Shown one piece after another: positions 4,378-12,471 of a stretch of 39,237 nt of DNA (the first letter of the stretch is position 1; the number at the start of each line of letters is the position of its first letter). The stretch covers positions 1 to 39,237 of the IMG/VR virus record IMGVR_UViG_3300023094_000020. The stretch is one strand, 5' to 3'. The stretch comes from a virus. The notes below the pieces were generated by a model that did no database searches, was not told the origin of the DNA, and saw nothing but the letters and a program-made list of their open reading frames with translations. The translations under genes were made by a program, and so were the position numbers.

Positions 4378-4676
4378 CAGCGATCCTTAATCTTCAAGTA
4401 AATAGACCGAACAGCCGTACGACCTTCTGCCGTCGTGATTGCGCAGGTAACGTATGCCGTAGTACCGTTAGTGCCGCCAGAAATCCAGACGGTAGCAGCA
4501 GTAGTCGTATGGCTAGATACTCCCATCTCTACACCAACCGGCTCAAACACTACAGACGCAATCGTATCGCTGATTTCAGCCAAGTATGCAGACCAGTCAA
4601 ACGTGTAATCCAGAACCTCTTCAGGATCTTTAACAATCGTAGGCTTATCCGTACCTCCAGTGTATGTCTCTGTCAT
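4377..4676 (-). CDS. Ig-like small structural protein (fiber-tail adaptor type)
   Basis: A 99-residue, beta-rich protein with the pattern DYTFDWSAYLAEISDTIAS, VWISGGTNGTTAYVTC and TAEGRTAVRSIYLKIK. This is the small Ig-like family found with phage head and tail genes, often labelled phage fiber-tail adaptor protein. It overlaps the repeat-rich structural gene upstream by ATGA, so the two products may act together. Confidence 0.6.
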   Translation of the reverse strand: MTETYTGGTDKPTIVKDPEEVLDYTFDWSAYLAEISDTIASVVFEPVGVEMGVSSHTTTAATVWISGGTNGTTAYVTCAITTAEGRTAVRSIYLKIKDR

Positions 4677-6037
4677 TCTGCGATGTTCCTGTTCTGAGGT
4701 TCTGGAGCTAGCTTTCTGTTCTGCGCTTCTAGTGCTGATACGCGATTCTGCGCGACCATAGAGACAACTCTGTTCTGCGCTACAGGATAAAACTGTCTTA
4801 GCTGAGCGTTAACCGGGTTAATGCGCACCTGAGCGCCGATAAACAGTGTTCTTTCAAGAGAGAATTCAACCTCTCCAGCCGAAGCCGATGCGGACATTAT
4901 ATCATCGGCGTTTGCGGCTGATAGGCTGGCGTAAATCTCTAGACTTGATTCTGATGATGCTGAGTCTGAGGGTTCATCAATCGATGCGTTGGCCGATATC
5001 AACACAGACGACGACGAGCTAGATGAGTCGCTCGCAACCTGAGATTCCAGCGACGCGCTCACGCCAGAAGACAGCAGGCTAGATACAGAGTCAGACTGAA
5101 CCGTTACTGAGGACTGCGCAGAGATCGCTACCGATGACAAAGACGAGGCTTGGTCATTCGCAAGCTGCACAGCTAACGATGCCGAGATAGCAGACTGCGA
5201 AGAGGCTTGGCTTGATACCGAGTCGCCCTGGTTAGTCATCGATGCAGAGCCGGAAACGCTAGCCTGACCTTGGCTTGACACGGTATCCGACTGCATAGTC
5301 ACTGCCGACTGAGCCGCGATCCCAGCAACAGAAGCAGAGGCCGAAGAGTCGTTAGCCAGAGTTACAGCCAGAGTCGCGTTAATCCCAGCCGATGCAAACG
5401 TCAGGTTATCAGCACTGAACTCAAGGAATGATGCGTGATCAGTGGCGAACGTGTTCGTTACTGTTGTTACTACGGTACCATCGAAGAACAGCGTACCTGT
5501 GCGCGTAACAGCCAGCGTCTGAGTGTGGATCTGCCAGACCTCGCAGACCAGCACGTCGCCTGCCAATGCCGCTACCTGAGTCGTCGCAGTGGTCGTGCCT
5601 TGGTTAACTCGCTCTGTAGTGTTGCTGACAATAGCGTCACCAGTCAGCCCAAGCGCATCTCCGACTGTTCCGACCTTGGCTCCTGTAGACGGTCGCCATA
5701 CGTACACATTGAACCGTAGATCGCCACCCAAGGCCATCATGGTTCCGTTCATTGAGTTGGCAATGTTTAGCGTTACTGTCTGTCCTGCACCGCCGACGTT
5801 CTGGTTTGCCGACAAAGGATCTGAACAGAAGAAACCGTAGAAGCCACTTTGCTCTGAAAGTGTTGCAAGACTCGCGGCGACCGCTGAGGATTGCAAAACC
5901 CCCTTAGTCGTATCCATTTTCCTAAGCGTGTTCGCGCCGGTTGCCGAGTAGCTAGCAACCAACGACGACTGCTCGCCAGCAGGAAACGTGCCGCTTAGCG
6001 CATTGCTAGCAGCATGGAAGTACAGCCGCGTTGCCAT
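4673..6037 (-). CDS. Virion structural protein with Ser-rich 21-residue repeats and QNR nonapeptides
   Basis: A 454-residue protein in three parts. Residues 1-215 look like a folded beta-rich virion domain (MATRLYFHAASNALSGTFPA; LRFNVYVWRPSTGAKVG). Residues about 215-385 are eight repeats of about 21 residues of the form SAxxxVxxxSDSxSS. The C-terminus is four tandem nonapeptides built on AQNR. It lies between a conserved capsid-associated protein and an Ig-like adaptor, so a capsid or neck fiber is likely. The repeats suggest an elongated beta-helical or beta-roll stalk, but that is inference. Function unknown. Confidence 0.8.
   Translation of the reverse strand: MATRLYFHAASNALSGTFPAGEQSSLVASYSATGANTLRKMDTTKGVLQSSAVAASLATLSEQSGFYGFFCSDPLSANQNVGGAGQTVTLNIANSMNGTMMALGGDLRFNVYVWRPSTGAKVGTVGDALGLTGDAIVSNTTERVNQGTTTATTQVAALAGDVLVCEVWQIHTQTLAVTRTGTLFFDGTVVTTVTNTFATDHASFLEFSADNLTFASAGINATLAVTLANDSSASASVAGIAAQSAVTMQSDTVSSQGQASVSGSASMTNQGDSVSSQASSQSAISASLAVQLANDQASSLSSVAISAQSSVTVQSDSVSSLLSSGVSASLESQVASDSSSSSSSVLISANASIDEPSDSASSESSLEIYASLSAANADDIMSASASAGEVEFSLERTLFIGAQVRINPVNAQLRQFYPVAQNRVVSMVAQNRVSALEAQNRKLAPEPQNRNIAE
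4676..4786 (-). repeat. Four tandem nonapeptide (QNR) coding repeats
   Basis: The C-terminus reads AQNRVVSMV, AQNRVSALE, AQNRKLAPE, PQNRNIAE. The DNA repeats a TTCTG-rich word on the plus strand every 27 bases. Confidence 0.8.
4883..5395 (-). repeat. Eight degenerate 21-residue Ser-rich coding repeats
   Basis: The units diverge but keep a small hydrophobic residue, SA, a hydrophobic residue and a terminal SD(S/T)xSS. Six units are exactly 21 residues, one is 23 and the first is shorter. Confidence 0.75.
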
Positions 6038-6441
6038 TACGCGTTGCCGGTGGTCAGCGTGAAGGAGTTAACGGTAACGACTTGCGAGACGGCGATGCTG
6101 GTGTTATCGAGGATCATATCGCCGCCGCCAGCAGTGATAGTGCAGGTGCCTTGCGCGTGAGTAGTAGTGCCAGCAGTGTCGACGATACGGAAGTATCCAG
6201 CCGTGCCAGCAGCAGCGCCAGTGCCGGACCATGTGCCAGCCTTAGCCTTGACGCCGGATGCAGCAGCGCCCATCCAGTCAGGCGGCAGCGCCATCTCGAC
6301 AAGCAGCGTACCGGTAGCAGCAGCCGCGCAGTTAGCCGGAACCGAGCCCGTGTAGATTCGCAGTTTAGCCGAAGTACCAGCCGTGCTTTCGAATGCGTCA
6401 AGGCGTGCGTTGTTTACTGCTACCGAATACTGGAGTGTCAT
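6037..6441 (-). CDS. Conserved capsid-associated structural protein
   Basis: A 134-residue protein, MTLQYSVAVNNARLDAFEST followed by a GTSAKLRIYTG block and LPPDWMGAAASG. This pattern is common in virion genes of proteobacterial siphoviruses and sits just downstream of the capsid cluster. The composition (Ala, Gly, Thr) suggests an all-beta virion protein. It is the first gene after late promoter copy c, 27 nt from the element, and its stop overlaps the next start. Confidence 0.65.
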   Translation of the reverse strand: MTLQYSVAVNNARLDAFESTAGTSAKLRIYTGSVPANCAAAATGTLLVEMALPPDWMGAAASGVKAKAGTWSGTGAAAGTAGYFRIVDTAGTTTHAQGTCTITAGGGDMILDNTSIAVSQVVTVNSFTLTTGNA

Positions 6442-6484: not shown

Positions 6485-6513
6485 TTGACGTGGAATTTAA
6501 GCGGGGCTAATAT
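6485..6513 (+). promoter_or_regulatory. Sigma70-type promoter of the leader-RNA cassette
   Basis: TTGACG (6485-6490) and TAATAT (6508-6513) are 17 bp apart, an almost ideal promoter. Transcription should start near 6520, leaving about 185 nt of untranslated leader before the ATG at 6705. Confidence 0.8.
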
Positions 6514-6519
6514 CTGTTT

Positions 6520-6704
6520 ACCGAAACGAAATATCTTCGGTCCCAGCAGCTACCCTGGGTCAACAAGGGTAGTCCGGAAGCGTGAAGCAAGCCGGATCCT
6601 CCTAAGGCAGCGAGGACTAAAGGAAAAGCCTCAGGTCTAGCCCGCCGAGTACAAAGAAAGGGCCTTACACAGAACCTGAAATCCGGCAGCTTGGAGCGAC
6701 AGAG
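6520..6704 (+). ncRNA. Candidate structured leader RNA or cis-regulatory element
   Basis: This stretch has no ORF of note but is rich in complementary segments. Hairpins are 6520-6525 with 6536-6541 (6 bp), 6550-6556 with 6566-6572 (7 bp), 6573-6577 with 6592-6596 (5 bp), 6597-6601 with 6612-6616 (5 bp) and 6631-6636 with 6674-6679 (6 bp). A long-range 7-bp match, GCCGGAT (6591-6597) with ATCCGGC (6681-6687), excludes the third hairpin and ends close to the Shine-Dalgarno site at 6693. That is the layout of a switch. No known riboswitch or ribozyme class was recognised. Confidence 0.55.
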
Positions 6705-6920
6705 ATGACCAGCCAAGAGTTCAACCAAGCAATCGAAGCGGTAATGGCCACCTACGCCAAGCACGCCAACGTGGAAAAGGTTCTGGCTTCTGGCGTTCAT
6801 AACGCAACTTGCTTCGAAGACCTTTGCGAAATCGCTACCTACAACTGCGGCGAGTTTGGCGACACCGCTGAATGCGTCGAATGCTTCGGAAACAGCCTTG
6901 AAGCGATGTTGTCAGCATGA
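6705..6920 (+). CDS. Small cysteine-containing protein, unknown function
   Basis: A 71-residue acidic helical protein (MTSQEFNQAIEAVMATYAKH) with cysteines in the second half (TCFEDLCEIATYNC, ECVECFG). A GGAG site lies eight bases before the ATG. It is the first gene behind the structured leader and is coupled by ATGA to the zinc-finger gene. Orientation is opposite to the head and tail genes on both sides, marking a separately expressed accessory cassette. No family recognised. Confidence 0.75.
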   Translation: MTSQEFNQAIEAVMATYAKHANVEKVLASGVHNATCFEDLCEIATYNCGEFGDTAECVECFGNSLEAMLSA

Positions 6921-7045
6921 GCACTTACAAGCACTGCCGCCATTGCGACGGGAAAGGCTTTGAGCCTTCCGATAACTTCAGGATTTGCCATCGCTGCTTA
7001 GGCGCTGGTGGGAAGTACCAACCCCGCCCAACTCAAGCCCCTTAA
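6917..7045 (+). CDS. Minimal DnaJ-type zinc finger protein (42 residues)
   Basis: The reading frame MSTYKHCRHCDGKGFEPSDN... encodes two CxxCxGxG-type half sites, CRHCDGKG (residues 7-14) and CHRCLGAG (residues 24-31), exactly the pair that holds one zinc ion in the DnaJ cysteine-rich domain. Nothing else of DnaJ is present: no J domain and no substrate domain. The start overlaps the upstream stop (ATGA) and the stop lies inside the terminator stem. Such a module could bind an unfolded protein or RNA. This is a real small gene in my judgement because both motifs and both couplings fit. Confidence 0.75.
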   Translation: MSTYKHCRHCDGKGFEPSDNFRICHRCLGAGGKYQPRPTQAP

Positions 7046-7059
7046 TAGGGGCTTTTTTT
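7035..7059 (+). terminator. Rho-independent terminator of the leader-RNA cassette
   Basis: AAGCCCC (7035-7041) and GGGGCTT (7048-7054) form a 7-bp stem with a 6-nt loop, followed by a run of T. The stop codon of the zinc finger gene lies across the 5' arm and loop. Confidence 0.88.
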
Positions 7060-7310: not shown

Positions 7311-8318
7311 TTAGCCTTTGGTGAACTGGGCGTACCCGGCATTTCCAGCAAAATCGCGCTTGAACTGTGGAGCAACTGCGGTCATGATCTGGAAGCTGTA
7401 CTCGTCGGTGAAGTTTTTACGCTCAATCGGCATAGTGGTTACAGGCATACCAGTCAGGATCTCAACAACCCGACGCTCTTTGACCACTGCCAGAATTTCG
7501 TTGGCAGGTACTGCGGTCGATGGAACGATTGCCAGAACGCCTGGGATCGCCATGATGCGAGTCAGGATGGTGTTCTGTGGAGCTGCGGTCACGTAGTCGG
7601 CAACCGACATTGCGAACCAATCACCGTAGTTCAGGTATACAGTAACACCACCGTAGTAGTTCTTGGCTTGCAGGCCCTGAAGAACCTTGGTGATAGCGGT
7701 TACCCACTGAGCGCCGGTAGCGGTTACCAAGTCGAAGTTACCGAACAAACCGGTAGCACGACCAGGCGCAGTACGCAGGCCGTATACCTGAGCGCCGCTT
7801 ACGTTGAACTTGGTGTCACCGTTAACAACCAGGTCCTCAAGTTTTTCCAAAATGCGGCGGTTACCGTTGTCACGAGTAGCAGCGTCCAGATACTGCCAGC
7901 CACCATCTTGACGAGCGGCTTCAACATCGCGCCAGCCGAAAGTAAAGGTGGTGTCGTAGATCGGCAGTGGAGTACCTTCGTAATCCAGAACCGGCGCATC
8001 TGCTTTAGCGCGGCTACGACCATCCAGCGAGCTGTTCACTTCGCCCGAGTCGGAGACTTTGGAGAAGTAGTTCAGAACCTTGCCGATTGGAACGTTCTTT
8101 TGCAGGCTCGACAAGTCGGCAAAAACTCCGAGCTGAGCGCGCTGCAAGGTGATCAGATCTTTGTCGTAGGTAGCCCAAGCATCACGAGGGATGGTGTAGG
8201 CGTTACCGATCAGCTCGCCTTCGCTTTCTTTTGCGAGACGTTCCTGGCGGGCGTTGTGAGCGCGGCGCTTGCCGATAACGGCTGCTTCCTGCTCTTTGTT
8301 AAAGGTCAAAATAGGCAT
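7311..8318 (-). CDS. Major capsid protein
   Basis: A 335-residue HK97-fold capsid subunit. The N-terminal segment (MPILTFNKEQEAAVIGKRRA) is followed by a long helix-rich arm, the FTFGWRDVEAARQDGG region and the central LVVNGDTKFN, which are typical of the DUF6260 group of major capsid proteins. The C-terminal SFQIMTAVAPQFKRDFAG is also typical. It follows the decoration-like gene and protease/scaffold, the usual maturation order, and is ended by a strong terminator. Several opposite-strand ORFs inside it are shadows. Confidence 0.9.
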   Translation of the reverse strand: MPILTFNKEQEAAVIGKRRAHNARQERLAKESEGELIGNAYTIPRDAWATYDKDLITLQRAQLGVFADLSSLQKNVPIGKVLNYFSKVSDSGEVNSSLDGRSRAKADAPVLDYEGTPLPIYDTTFTFGWRDVEAARQDGGWQYLDAATRDNGNRRILEKLEDLVVNGDTKFNVSGAQVYGLRTAPGRATGLFGNFDLVTATGAQWVTAITKVLQGLQAKNYYGGVTVYLNYGDWFAMSVADYVTAAPQNTILTRIMAIPGVLAIVPSTAVPANEILAVVKERRVVEILTGMPVTTMPIERKNFTDEYSFQIMTAVAPQFKRDFAGNAGYAQFTKG

Positions 8319-10158: not shown

Positions 10159-11526
10159 ATGACTGTGAAACGCACGCCTGCACTAGATTTGGCGCTGAAC
10201 TCGGCATTGAGCGAGCGGGCGACGTTGATGTCTCGTCAGTCGCTCATGAGTGGCAGCATCGATGCAGCCCGCCCCAATTCTTGGTGCAGCTACGGCTACA
10301 AAGAACATCTGTGCTTCAGCGACTTCTATCGCCTTTTTGAGCGCGGTGGCATTGCTCATGGCGCGGTAATGACTCTGAATGAATCGTGTTTCAGCTCGGA
10401 TCCAGAAATTATCGAGGGTGACGAGGAAGATCGCGCCGAGGCTCCTACTGCCTGGGAGAAGCAATTTAAGAAGCTAGCTAAGCGCCTGAAGCTGTGGGAG
10501 AAGTTCCGCGATGCCGATATGCGACGTCTGGTTGGCCGGTACTCGTGCATCCTCCTGCAATTCAAAGACTCGAAGCAATGGGATCAGCCTGTAGGAAAGG
10601 CATCTGAACAGCAACTGATTAACTTGATCGTTGCATGGGAAGGTCAAATCAAGGTTACGTCTTGGTACGACAACCCGGCAGATGCTAACTTCGGCAAGCC
10701 AAAGACCTTTGAGTACTGCGAAAACGCACTGAATGACAACTTCAACGCAGAGCCTGGGCGCATCATCACGGTGCATCCGGATCGCGTTGTTGTTGTAGGC
10801 GACATGCGCAACGGGATTCCGTATCTGCTCGCCGGCTACAATGATTGCGTGAACATGGAGAAGGTGCTTGGTGGCTCAGGCGAATCGTTCCTGAAGAACG
10901 CCAGCCGTCAACTGGCAATCAACTTCGAGAAGGATGTTCAGCTAGACCAGATTGCCCGTGCTCACGGCGTTCCAGTTGGCGACCTACAGGAGATCTTTAA
11001 CGAGGTGACGGTTGGTATGTCGAAAGGCATTGACCAGACGATCATCACTCAAGGCGCGACTGTTAGCCCTCTCGTTGCGACCGTTCCTGACCCGTATCCA
11101 GCATTCGATGTATCGCTGCAATCCTTCTGTGCCTCTATCCGCATCCCATCCAAGATTGTCGTTGGCAATCAGACTGGCGAGCGTGCGTCTACTGAAGACC
11201 AGAAGACGTTCAACAAGCGCTGCCAGGGTCGCCGGGTTAGCCTGTTGTCGTCGGACATCGAGACGTTTGTTGATCATCTGATGCGCCTTGGTGTGCTGCT
11301 AACTCTGGAATATTCTGTTTGCTGGGACGATCTGACCGAGGCTAGCAAAGACGAGAAGATCAGCATTGTCGTCAAGATGGCCGACGTGAATAGCAAGATG
11401 CTGGCGAGTGGTCAGCCAGTGTTTACGGCTGAAGAGATGCGCGAGGTGGGCGGCTATGACAACGATGTAGAGTTGCCGCCACTACCTGACATCGCGCCGC
11501 CAGAAGATCCGGCAACCGTGCAATAA
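10159..11526 (+). CDS. Portal protein (DUF1073 type)
   Basis: A 455-residue portal that forms the dodecameric DNA gate of the head. Characteristic segments are the early CFSDFYRLFERGGIAHGAVM, the RIITVHPDRVVVVGD block, a long helix and the QTGERASTEDQKTFNKRCQG loop found in DUF1073 portals. Its Shine-Dalgarno GAGG lies nine bases before the ATG. It is encoded on the plus strand although terminase, protease and capsid are all on the minus strand. Some databases name this family after the anti-CBASS protein Acb1; I saw no Acb1 nuclease domain here. Confidence 0.85.
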   Translation: MTVKRTPALDLALNSALSERATLMSRQSLMSGSIDAARPNSWCSYGYKEHLCFSDFYRLFERGGIAHGAVMTLNESCFSSDPEIIEGDEEDRAEAPTAWEKQFKKLAKRLKLWEKFRDADMRRLVGRYSCILLQFKDSKQWDQPVGKASEQQLINLIVAWEGQIKVTSWYDNPADANFGKPKTFEYCENALNDNFNAEPGRIITVHPDRVVVVGDMRNGIPYLLAGYNDCVNMEKVLGGSGESFLKNASRQLAINFEKDVQLDQIARAHGVPVGDLQEIFNEVTVGMSKGIDQTIITQGATVSPLVATVPDPYPAFDVSLQSFCASIRIPSKIVVGNQTGERASTEDQKTFNKRCQGRRVSLLSSDIETFVDHLMRLGVLLTLEYSVCWDDLTEASKDEKISIVVKMADVNSKMLASGQPVFTAEEMREVGGYDNDVELPPLPDIAPPEDPATVQ

Positions 11527-11528
11527 TC

Positions 11529-11553
11529 AAAGGCCCTACGGGGCCTTTCTTAA
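11529..11553 (+). terminator. Weak terminator or hairpin between portal and minor head genes
   Basis: AAAGGCCC (11529-11536) and GGGCCTTT (11541-11548) form an 8-bp stem with a 4-nt loop. The 3' T-tract is interrupted, so it may act as an attenuator giving more portal than minor head protein. Confidence 0.6.
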
Positions 11554-11565
11554 TTAGAGGTAAGT

Positions 11566-12471
11566 ATGGCAGGCAGCCCAATTCTCCCGCGCTCAAGCAC
11601 AGATCCGTCGGGCCAGGACGTGCGCGAAAGACGATTCATGAAGGACTTTGACCGGCGCGTTAATGCAATCGGCAAAGAGGTGCTGCGAATCCTCGGCGAG
11701 CAGAATTACACCGTCGTTACGCTGAATGCATTGCAGAACAACGCGACCACGTATCAGTTTGAGCTTGATCAGGCGATCTTGGCCGGCATCAGTTCCGAGA
11801 TTGAGCGGATCATTAACCTGATCATCTTGGAAGGGGGAGAGCAAGAGCTATGGAGTATGCGAGCGTACGTTGAGCCAGCATATGTGCAGGGTACGGCTAT
11901 GACAGCCGCAAACCTGACAGTTCAAAGCGAGCTGTATGCATTGAGCAAGCCTAGTCTTGACGCGATCCTATTCAGTCCTCCTTATCGCAAACGCATCAGC
12001 CTGTTAGCTGCTCGTGAGTTCGAACTGATGCAAGGATTCGCCGGCACGCTGAAATCGGATCTTGCGCAGACGTTAACGCGAGGTATGATCGCTGGACAGA
12101 GCCCACGAGTGATCGCTAAGGACATTCAGGCGCGTACAGGAGTGAATAAGAGTCGAGCGGAAAGGATTGCGCGGACTGAAGTTACGAATGCGTTTAGGCA
12201 GGCGCGCATGGATGAGGCGCAAGATGCGCAGACTAGTTTGGGGATTAAGACAAATATCATGCACTTGAGCGCTCTCAGTCCGACCACTAGGCCGGATCAC
12301 AGAGCTAGGCATGCAAAGCTGTACACGATTCAGGAGGAGCGCACTTGGTATGCGACAACGCCGGGGGCGCCAATAAATTGTCGATGCGGAATGACAGAGG
12401 TTCTCGTTAACGACAAAGGGGAGCCGCTGTCACCAGCAATCATCGAGCGAGCCAAGAGAAAGCTAGGCTAG
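11566..12471 (+). CDS. Minor head protein, Mu F / SPP1 gp7-like
   Basis: A 301-residue head morphogenesis protein. Helical N-terminal two thirds lead to the Mu F-type C-terminal domain: RAERIARTEVTNAFRQARMD, then TTRPDHRARHAKLYT and the signature GAPINCRCGMTEVLV. These proteins enter the prohead with the portal. It directly follows the portal in the usual order, which supports both calls. A short attenuator-like hairpin separates the two. Confidence 0.85.
   Translation: MAGSPILPRSSTDPSGQDVRERRFMKDFDRRVNAIGKEVLRILGEQNYTVVTLNALQNNATTYQFELDQAILAGISSEIERIINLIILEGGEQELWSMRAYVEPAYVQGTAMTAANLTVQSELYALSKPSLDAILFSPPYRKRISLLAAREFELMQGFAGTLKSDLAQTLTRGMIAGQSPRVIAKDIQARTGVNKSRAERIARTEVTNAFRQARMDEAQDAQTSLGIKTNIMHLSALSPTTRPDHRARHAKLYTIQEERTWYATTPGAPINCRCGMTEVLVNDKGEPLSPAIIERAKRKLG

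Follow-up and report, generated by a model that had tools for sequence, protein, structure and literature searches.

The window analysed here is the whole of a 39,237-base stretch of viral DNA (IMG/VR virus record IMGVR_UViG_3300023094_000020, positions 1 to 39,237). On its plus strand, among head genes encoded on the minus strand, lies a compact cassette (6485-7059) that contains, in order, a promoter, a leader of ~185 nt, two small ORFs, and a terminator. The sigma70-type promoter, TTGACG-17-TAATAT (6485-6513), matches the consensus at nine of 12 positions. It is followed by a structured RNA module of ~144 nt (6520-6663), which begins at the predicted transcription start, within ~7 nt of the -10 box, and by a non-conserved leader tail (6664-6704) carrying the ribosome site GGAG (6693-6696). 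ORF1 (6705-6920) encodes an acidic protein of 71 aa, and ORF2 (6917-7045) a 42-aa CxxCxGxG protein, zinc-ribbon-like and of the DnaJ central-domain type. The unit is closed by an intrinsic terminator (7035-7059), a terminator-like stem (7035-7054) and then a T-run. An earlier note on this sequence had described a self-contained cassette with a near-consensus promoter and two coupled genes, and each of these elements is confirmed, the coupling residing in an ATGA overlap of ORF1 and ORF2. The flanking virion genes, both on the minus strand, are phrog_3758 (6037-6441) and a head protein, phrog_771 (7311-8318).

The cassette fits the definition of a moron: it has its own promoter and terminator, lies between conserved phage genes, and has moved in a relative, L005, where it is placed elsewhere within the same variable interval, which is bounded by a 60-aa and a 129-aa gene. 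Adjoining the 60-aa gene in this interval is a T5orf172/MUG113 (GIY-YIG-type) endonuclease-like gene (L005:791-1720), which suggests that the interval collects mobile genes. Like phage morons, the cassette is an autonomous promoter-gene-terminator unit between conserved structural genes, variably placed among relatives; unlike them, it bears a long structured RNA, whose presence varies independently of that of the genes. The sequence type of its terminator also occurs in several Pseudomonas phages, and only this resemblance and that of the RNA to Pseudomonas phage PP21 suggest that the host of the window may be a Pseudomonas.

The two proteins offer few functional clues. No Pfam, PHROGs, NCBIfam, or PADLOC family matches ORF1 above noise, and its predicted structure is all-helical with low confidence (pLDDT 66). 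A profile search of 349 genomes from the second of two genera with Pseudomonas-type OprI found no ORF1, and phage and plasmid collections gave no match to it. ORF2 has a sub-threshold match to Pfam DnaJ_CXXCXGXG (E=1.7e-4). It also shows very weak similarity to the anti-TRAP protein RtpA. Neither ORF has a hit in PADLOC, or one above cut-off in NCBIfam, toxin families included.

Homologs of the RNA occur at three further loci. A search with ORF1 returned two viral contigs, L001 and L002 (92% and 89% identity). The former carries the whole cassette, with an RNA block identical at 143 of 144 positions, whereas in the latter, a virus record of 105 kb, ORF1 occurs but the RNA does not. BLAST of the leader retrieved a single sequenced phage, PP21, at 77% over 6574-6662, and a covariance model built from the window and L001 only (R1) recovered PP21, absent from its training, at 54 bits (E 2e-15). 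The remaining copy, on IMG/VR contig L068, was reached by a pattern from the 3' part of the RNA; it matches model R2, which does not contain L068, at E 7e-17, and PP21 by BLAST at E 7e-7. Here the RNA stands directly ahead of an ORF1 homolog of 38% identity. Three of the four RNA copies therefore precede an ORF1 homolog, the exception being PP21, where the nearest annotated gene start is ~255 nt downstream. ORF2 is confined to the window and L001 and is absent after ORF1 in L002 and L068.

The genomic settings of the four copies differ. In PP21 the RNA opens a gene block diverging from the tail genes, and in L068 its unit diverges from a Cro-like gene and a primase; both copies thus head apparent early operons. 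The copies in the window and L001 lie in cassettes within head genes. On the minus strand of L068, beyond the ORF1 homolog, a single arm of a terminator of the cassette type survives (L068:3195-3225, CCACCTCAAACCCCTTAA); the arm that would pair with it is missing, as though terminator loss had merged an earlier cassette into an operon.

Neither the window nor its homologs match a family of Rfam 15 at the gathering threshold, the sole signals being sub-threshold sRNA noise around the window terminator. The view that no known riboswitch class fits is therefore upheld, and the RNA appears to represent a new family within a known kind, the structured phage leader RNA. Pattern searches of viral contigs gave further candidates, mostly coding or chance (L006-L043 and L049, none recognised by R1), and among a later group (L064-L069) only L068 was recognised, by R2. 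In bacterial and archaeal genomes, a tight pattern gave no matches and a looser one eight, all chance. Model searches of 391 genomes of one order and 369 of the class, and of 25 and 399 genomes of the two genera with Pseudomonas-type OprI, returned chance matches only, with few-sequence models and stricter filters. Among these chance matches, L060/L061 fall within an iron-sulfur reductase gene resembling queG, and L076 at the end of an oprD-like gene.

Comparison of the window with PP21 and L068 supports a model of the ~144-nt RNA as an autonomous structured RNA of five hairpins and one pseudoknot. Hairpin P1 (6520-6541) pairs 6520-6525 with 6536-6541 as ACCGAA/UUCGGU, replaced in a hand alignment by GUGG/CCAC in PP21 and CCCA/UGGG in L068; its alignment is the weakest among the helices. 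P2 (6550-6572; 6550-6555 with 6567-6572) is CUACCC/GGGUAG in the window versus CCGGC/GCCGG in PP21 and L068. P3 (6573-6596; 6573-6577 with 6592-6596) changes from UCCGG/CCGGA to GCCGG/CCGGC in PP21 and CUUGG/CCAAG in L068, around a conserved loop AGCGYGAAGCA (GUUAAGCA in L068). P4 (6597-6616; 6597-6601 with 6612-6616) has the loop CUAAGGCAGC on a stem that is UCCUC/GAGGA in the window versus CAGUC/GACUG in PP21; in L068 it has four pairs and one G.A mismatch, and an extra hairpin is inserted after it. A segment of the window overlapping the conserved P4 loop (6600-6613, UCCUAAGGCAGCGA) matches E. coli 23S rRNA 1923-1936 at 13 of 14 positions, probably by chance, because three of 60 shuffles reach the same score.

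The pseudoknot (6602-6634) is formed between the P4 loop (6602-6608) and 6628-6634, with strands CUAAGGC/GCCUCAG in the window, CUAAGAC/GUCUCAG in PP21, and CUAAGAA/UUCUCAG in L068; two of the pairs covary, and an A.C mismatch is constant throughout. The conserved A-rich strand UAAAGGAA joins P4 to the pseudoknot and holds an invariant UAAAGG, which would be typical of an A-rich strand lying in a minor groove. P5 (6640-6663; 6640-6643 with 6660-6663), GCCC/GGGC versus ACCC/GGGU in PP21, closes the conserved loop CCGAGUA..GAA. The motifs CUAAG, UAAAGG, and CCGAGUA are invariant. Just past P5, sequence homology with L001 breaks off abruptly. The conserved RNA ends at 6663, ~40 nt ahead of the ORF1 start codon in the window.

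Folding energy is unremarkable (z -0.69 for the leader and -1.05 for the core alone; -0.7 to -1.4 overall), so the hairpins by themselves are insufficient for this claim, and it is covariation with PP21 and L068 that places the structure beyond chance. The R1-model alignment with PP21 contains 32 pairs including the pseudoknot, of which 98.9% are paired and 12 are changed on both sides, against 4.0 +/- 1.6 such double changes in shuffles and 0-2 in slid controls. Because this alignment is fitted to the structure, covariation was retested on sequence-only alignments in the P3-P5 region. With ordinary gap costs, the window and PP21 show four compensatory pairs (P about 2e-4 by permuted substitutions) together with three broken ones; with cheap gaps, only one compensatory pair is seen. 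Given this yield of one or four, the P1-P2 part depends on the structural alignment. A hand structural alignment that includes L068 has 17 covarying pairs over the six helices, that is, the five hairpins and the pseudoknot, from four loci with three distinct sequences, L001 being near-identical to the window. The earlier note had named covariation among homologous leaders as the check on its long structured non-coding leader, with its absence counting against the proposal. Covariation beyond chance, indicative of a conserved structured RNA, is found among the three distinct sequences, and the leader structure is borne out on this basis rather than by folding energy. It also makes it very improbable that the region is a conserved site in the DNA, or conceals a coding sequence, instead of specifying an RNA element. 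Two frames do cross the region, one of 51 codons (6485-6640, starting with TTG) and one of 97 codons on the minus strand, but both are lost in PP21 and L068 through indels and stops, and the compensatory changes in six helices largely refute this reading.

A different fate met the proposal that the leader acts as a translational switch, with a 7-bp pairing between 6591-6597 and 6681-6687 in the leader tail excluding a local hairpin. The pairing exists in the window, where it is the longest complement between the RNA core and the post-RNA leader, but it is absent from L001, L068, and PP21. In L001 the post-RNA leader is an unrelated sequence that replaces that of the window (13 of 27 aligned positions identical to 6664-6704, with 16 gap columns), and it has no complement of at least 5 nt to the core. 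The L068 leader resembles that of the window but is not complementary to the 3' strand of P3. Since the pairing is missing in the homologs and P3, the hairpin to be excluded, itself covaries, the structure is supported and the switching is not; no mutually exclusive pairing is conserved in the homologs. An alternative 5-nt pairing of the P3 5' strand with the leader is present in the window (CCGGA/UCCGG) and L068 (UUGGA/UCCAA) and is a weak lead only, because it is absent in L001. These comparisons indicate that the RNA is a separable block and not a leader built around the ORF1 ribosome site.

The same observations bear on any ligand- or protein-responsive leader controlling ORF1 translation, whether through the switch originally envisaged or through autoregulation by the ORF1 protein. 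An aptamer-like core with a pseudoknot, placed ahead of an ORF1 homolog at three of four loci, is consistent with such control, as are the 5-nt alternative pairing and an unconstrained folding of the window leader that pairs the ribosome-site region with the core at a mean probability of 0.64. However, the ribosome-site pairing is weaker in L001 (0.48) and L068 (0.25), and the spacing from RNA to start codon varies from 29 to 41 nt. The RNA and ORF1 also occur apart, the RNA alone in PP21 and ORF1 alone in L002. Together with the unconserved 7-bp pairing and the divergent L001 leader, these points render ORF1-specific translational control unlikely.

That the block is portable is seen at related sites that lack it. 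In PP21 the RNA sits between a TTGACA-17-TAGCAT promoter and CAACGGAACCGACAATCTTG. Its relatives FBPa8, O4, K4, and HHBS10_2 (L045-L048) have near-identical -35/spacer and downstream sequences, separated by no more than a few bases and lacking the RNA, and PA11 (L044) retains the downstream part only. The ORF1 leader of L002 shares AACGAAACGAAC with the L001 leader, but without the RNA. These RNA-less relatives of PP21 and the RNA-less L002 imply that, in two unrelated settings, transcription units have acquired or lost the block at their 5' ends. The comparisons thus show the RNA to be a portable unit, with a promoter region before it and an unrelated leader after it, that does not belong to any single gene. 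Clear promoters are found only in the window and PP21; consensus scans gave none at L001 and L068, the L001 counterpart of the window promoter failing the scan.

The RNA is also the best-preserved part of the cassette. Between the window and L001, identity is 99.3% over its 144 nt, compared with 92.5% for ORF1, 90.7% for ORF2, and 86% for the promoter region (43 of 50 positions). In counts, 1/144 RNA positions differ, against 16/213 in ORF1, where 11 of the changes fall at third codon positions, and 7/50 in the promoter region; the higher identity of the RNA has Fisher p values of 0.002 and 3e-4. In this one comparison, near-identity could mean that almost all bases are strongly constrained or that the block was exchanged recently. 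Its extension to unpaired bases would suit a trans-acting phage non-coding RNA that binds a host protein or RNA as a decoy or in anti-defence, released or still attached, with the genes merely co-transcribed. The autonomous fold, the invariant loop motifs, and the distance to the nearest annotated gene in PP21 point the same way, and the portability of the cassette and its early positions would be in keeping with host takeover or counter-defence. Such a role in trans is nevertheless doubtful: no terminator or processing signal is seen at the 3' end of the RNA, which always heads a longer transcription unit and in three of four copies is followed by an ORF1 homolog.

The reading tentatively preferred, ahead of a trans-acting RNA and, in third place, an ORF1-specific translational switch, is that of a cis-acting 5'-terminal element on phage early and accessory transcripts, here within a moron-like cassette. 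The cassette transcript would open with an independently folding pseudoknotted RNA, in the order P1-P2-P3-P4+pseudoknot-P5, and the nascent RNA would act in cis on its own transcript or on RNA polymerase, through stability, processivity, or antitermination. Expression of early and accessory phage genes would thereby be raised or conditioned. Portability, the 5'-terminal position, the lack of a conserved link to any ribosome site, and the early-operon settings of PP21 and L068 favour such an autonomous cis element. Against it, the ORF1 homologs behind three of four copies could mean gene-specific control. Strong antitermination would also be odd in the window, because the terminator follows ~380 nt after the RNA and, further downstream, genes run in the antisense direction.

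In its positional logic, the proposed cis element comes closest to the put RNAs of phage HK022, which suppress terminators through the zinc-binding domain of the RNA polymerase beta-prime subunit. These are self-contained RNAs of complex tertiary structure near the start of an early transcript made by host RNA polymerase, and they need no dedicated phage protein; putL, just downstream of the early PL promoter, is ~70 nt long with two stem-loops (PMC9378689). The likeness is one of position at the transcript start and not of fold, since the window RNA has ~144 nt, five hairpins, and a pseudoknot; model R2 found no match in HK022 (NC_002166) at E<=10. By gene order, a place at an early-transcript start fits PP21 and L068, the other two copies being in head-gene cassettes.

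H-type pseudoknot riboswitches such as preQ1 and SAM-II are likewise 5'-leader pseudoknots with an A-rich strand joining two helices. The window RNA shares this architecture but differs in having no Rfam match, no downstream metabolic gene, and no conserved expression platform. ToxI, of type III toxin-antitoxin systems, is a small pseudoknotted RNA of tandem short repeats beside a toxin gene. Phage mimics of ToxI exist (PMC3475682). The window RNA resembles ToxI in its small size, its pseudoknot, and its carriage by a phage, but no ToxI-like tandem repeat array is present at it.

A broader possibility, itself rather unlikely, is a portable RNA-only device placed behind promoters and mobile independently of genes, acting on host RNA polymerase as a second, structurally unrelated put-like class or serving as an anti-defence RNA. 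To our knowledge, conserved tertiary structure is documented in few regulatory RNAs of phages. The present one has no Rfam entry, its boundary is defined, sites naturally lacking it allow comparison, and one of its carriers, PP21 (on P. aeruginosa), is an isolated phage; its effect should therefore be directly measurable. Action on RNA polymerase would provide another example of protein-free RNA antitermination; action in trans may expose a host target or defence.

Two features of the window outside the cassette merit mention. The portal gene (phrog_146) and the ORF after it (10159-12471) lie on the plus strand. Their neighbours on both sides, the head protein, the 436-aa gene, and the terminase, are encoded by the minus strand, so that the head module contains an unusual local inversion. 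A 454-aa ORF (4673-6037) without a PHROGs match contains several degenerate Ser/Ala-rich repeats (SDSVSS-like) and possibly encodes a repetitive virion surface protein.
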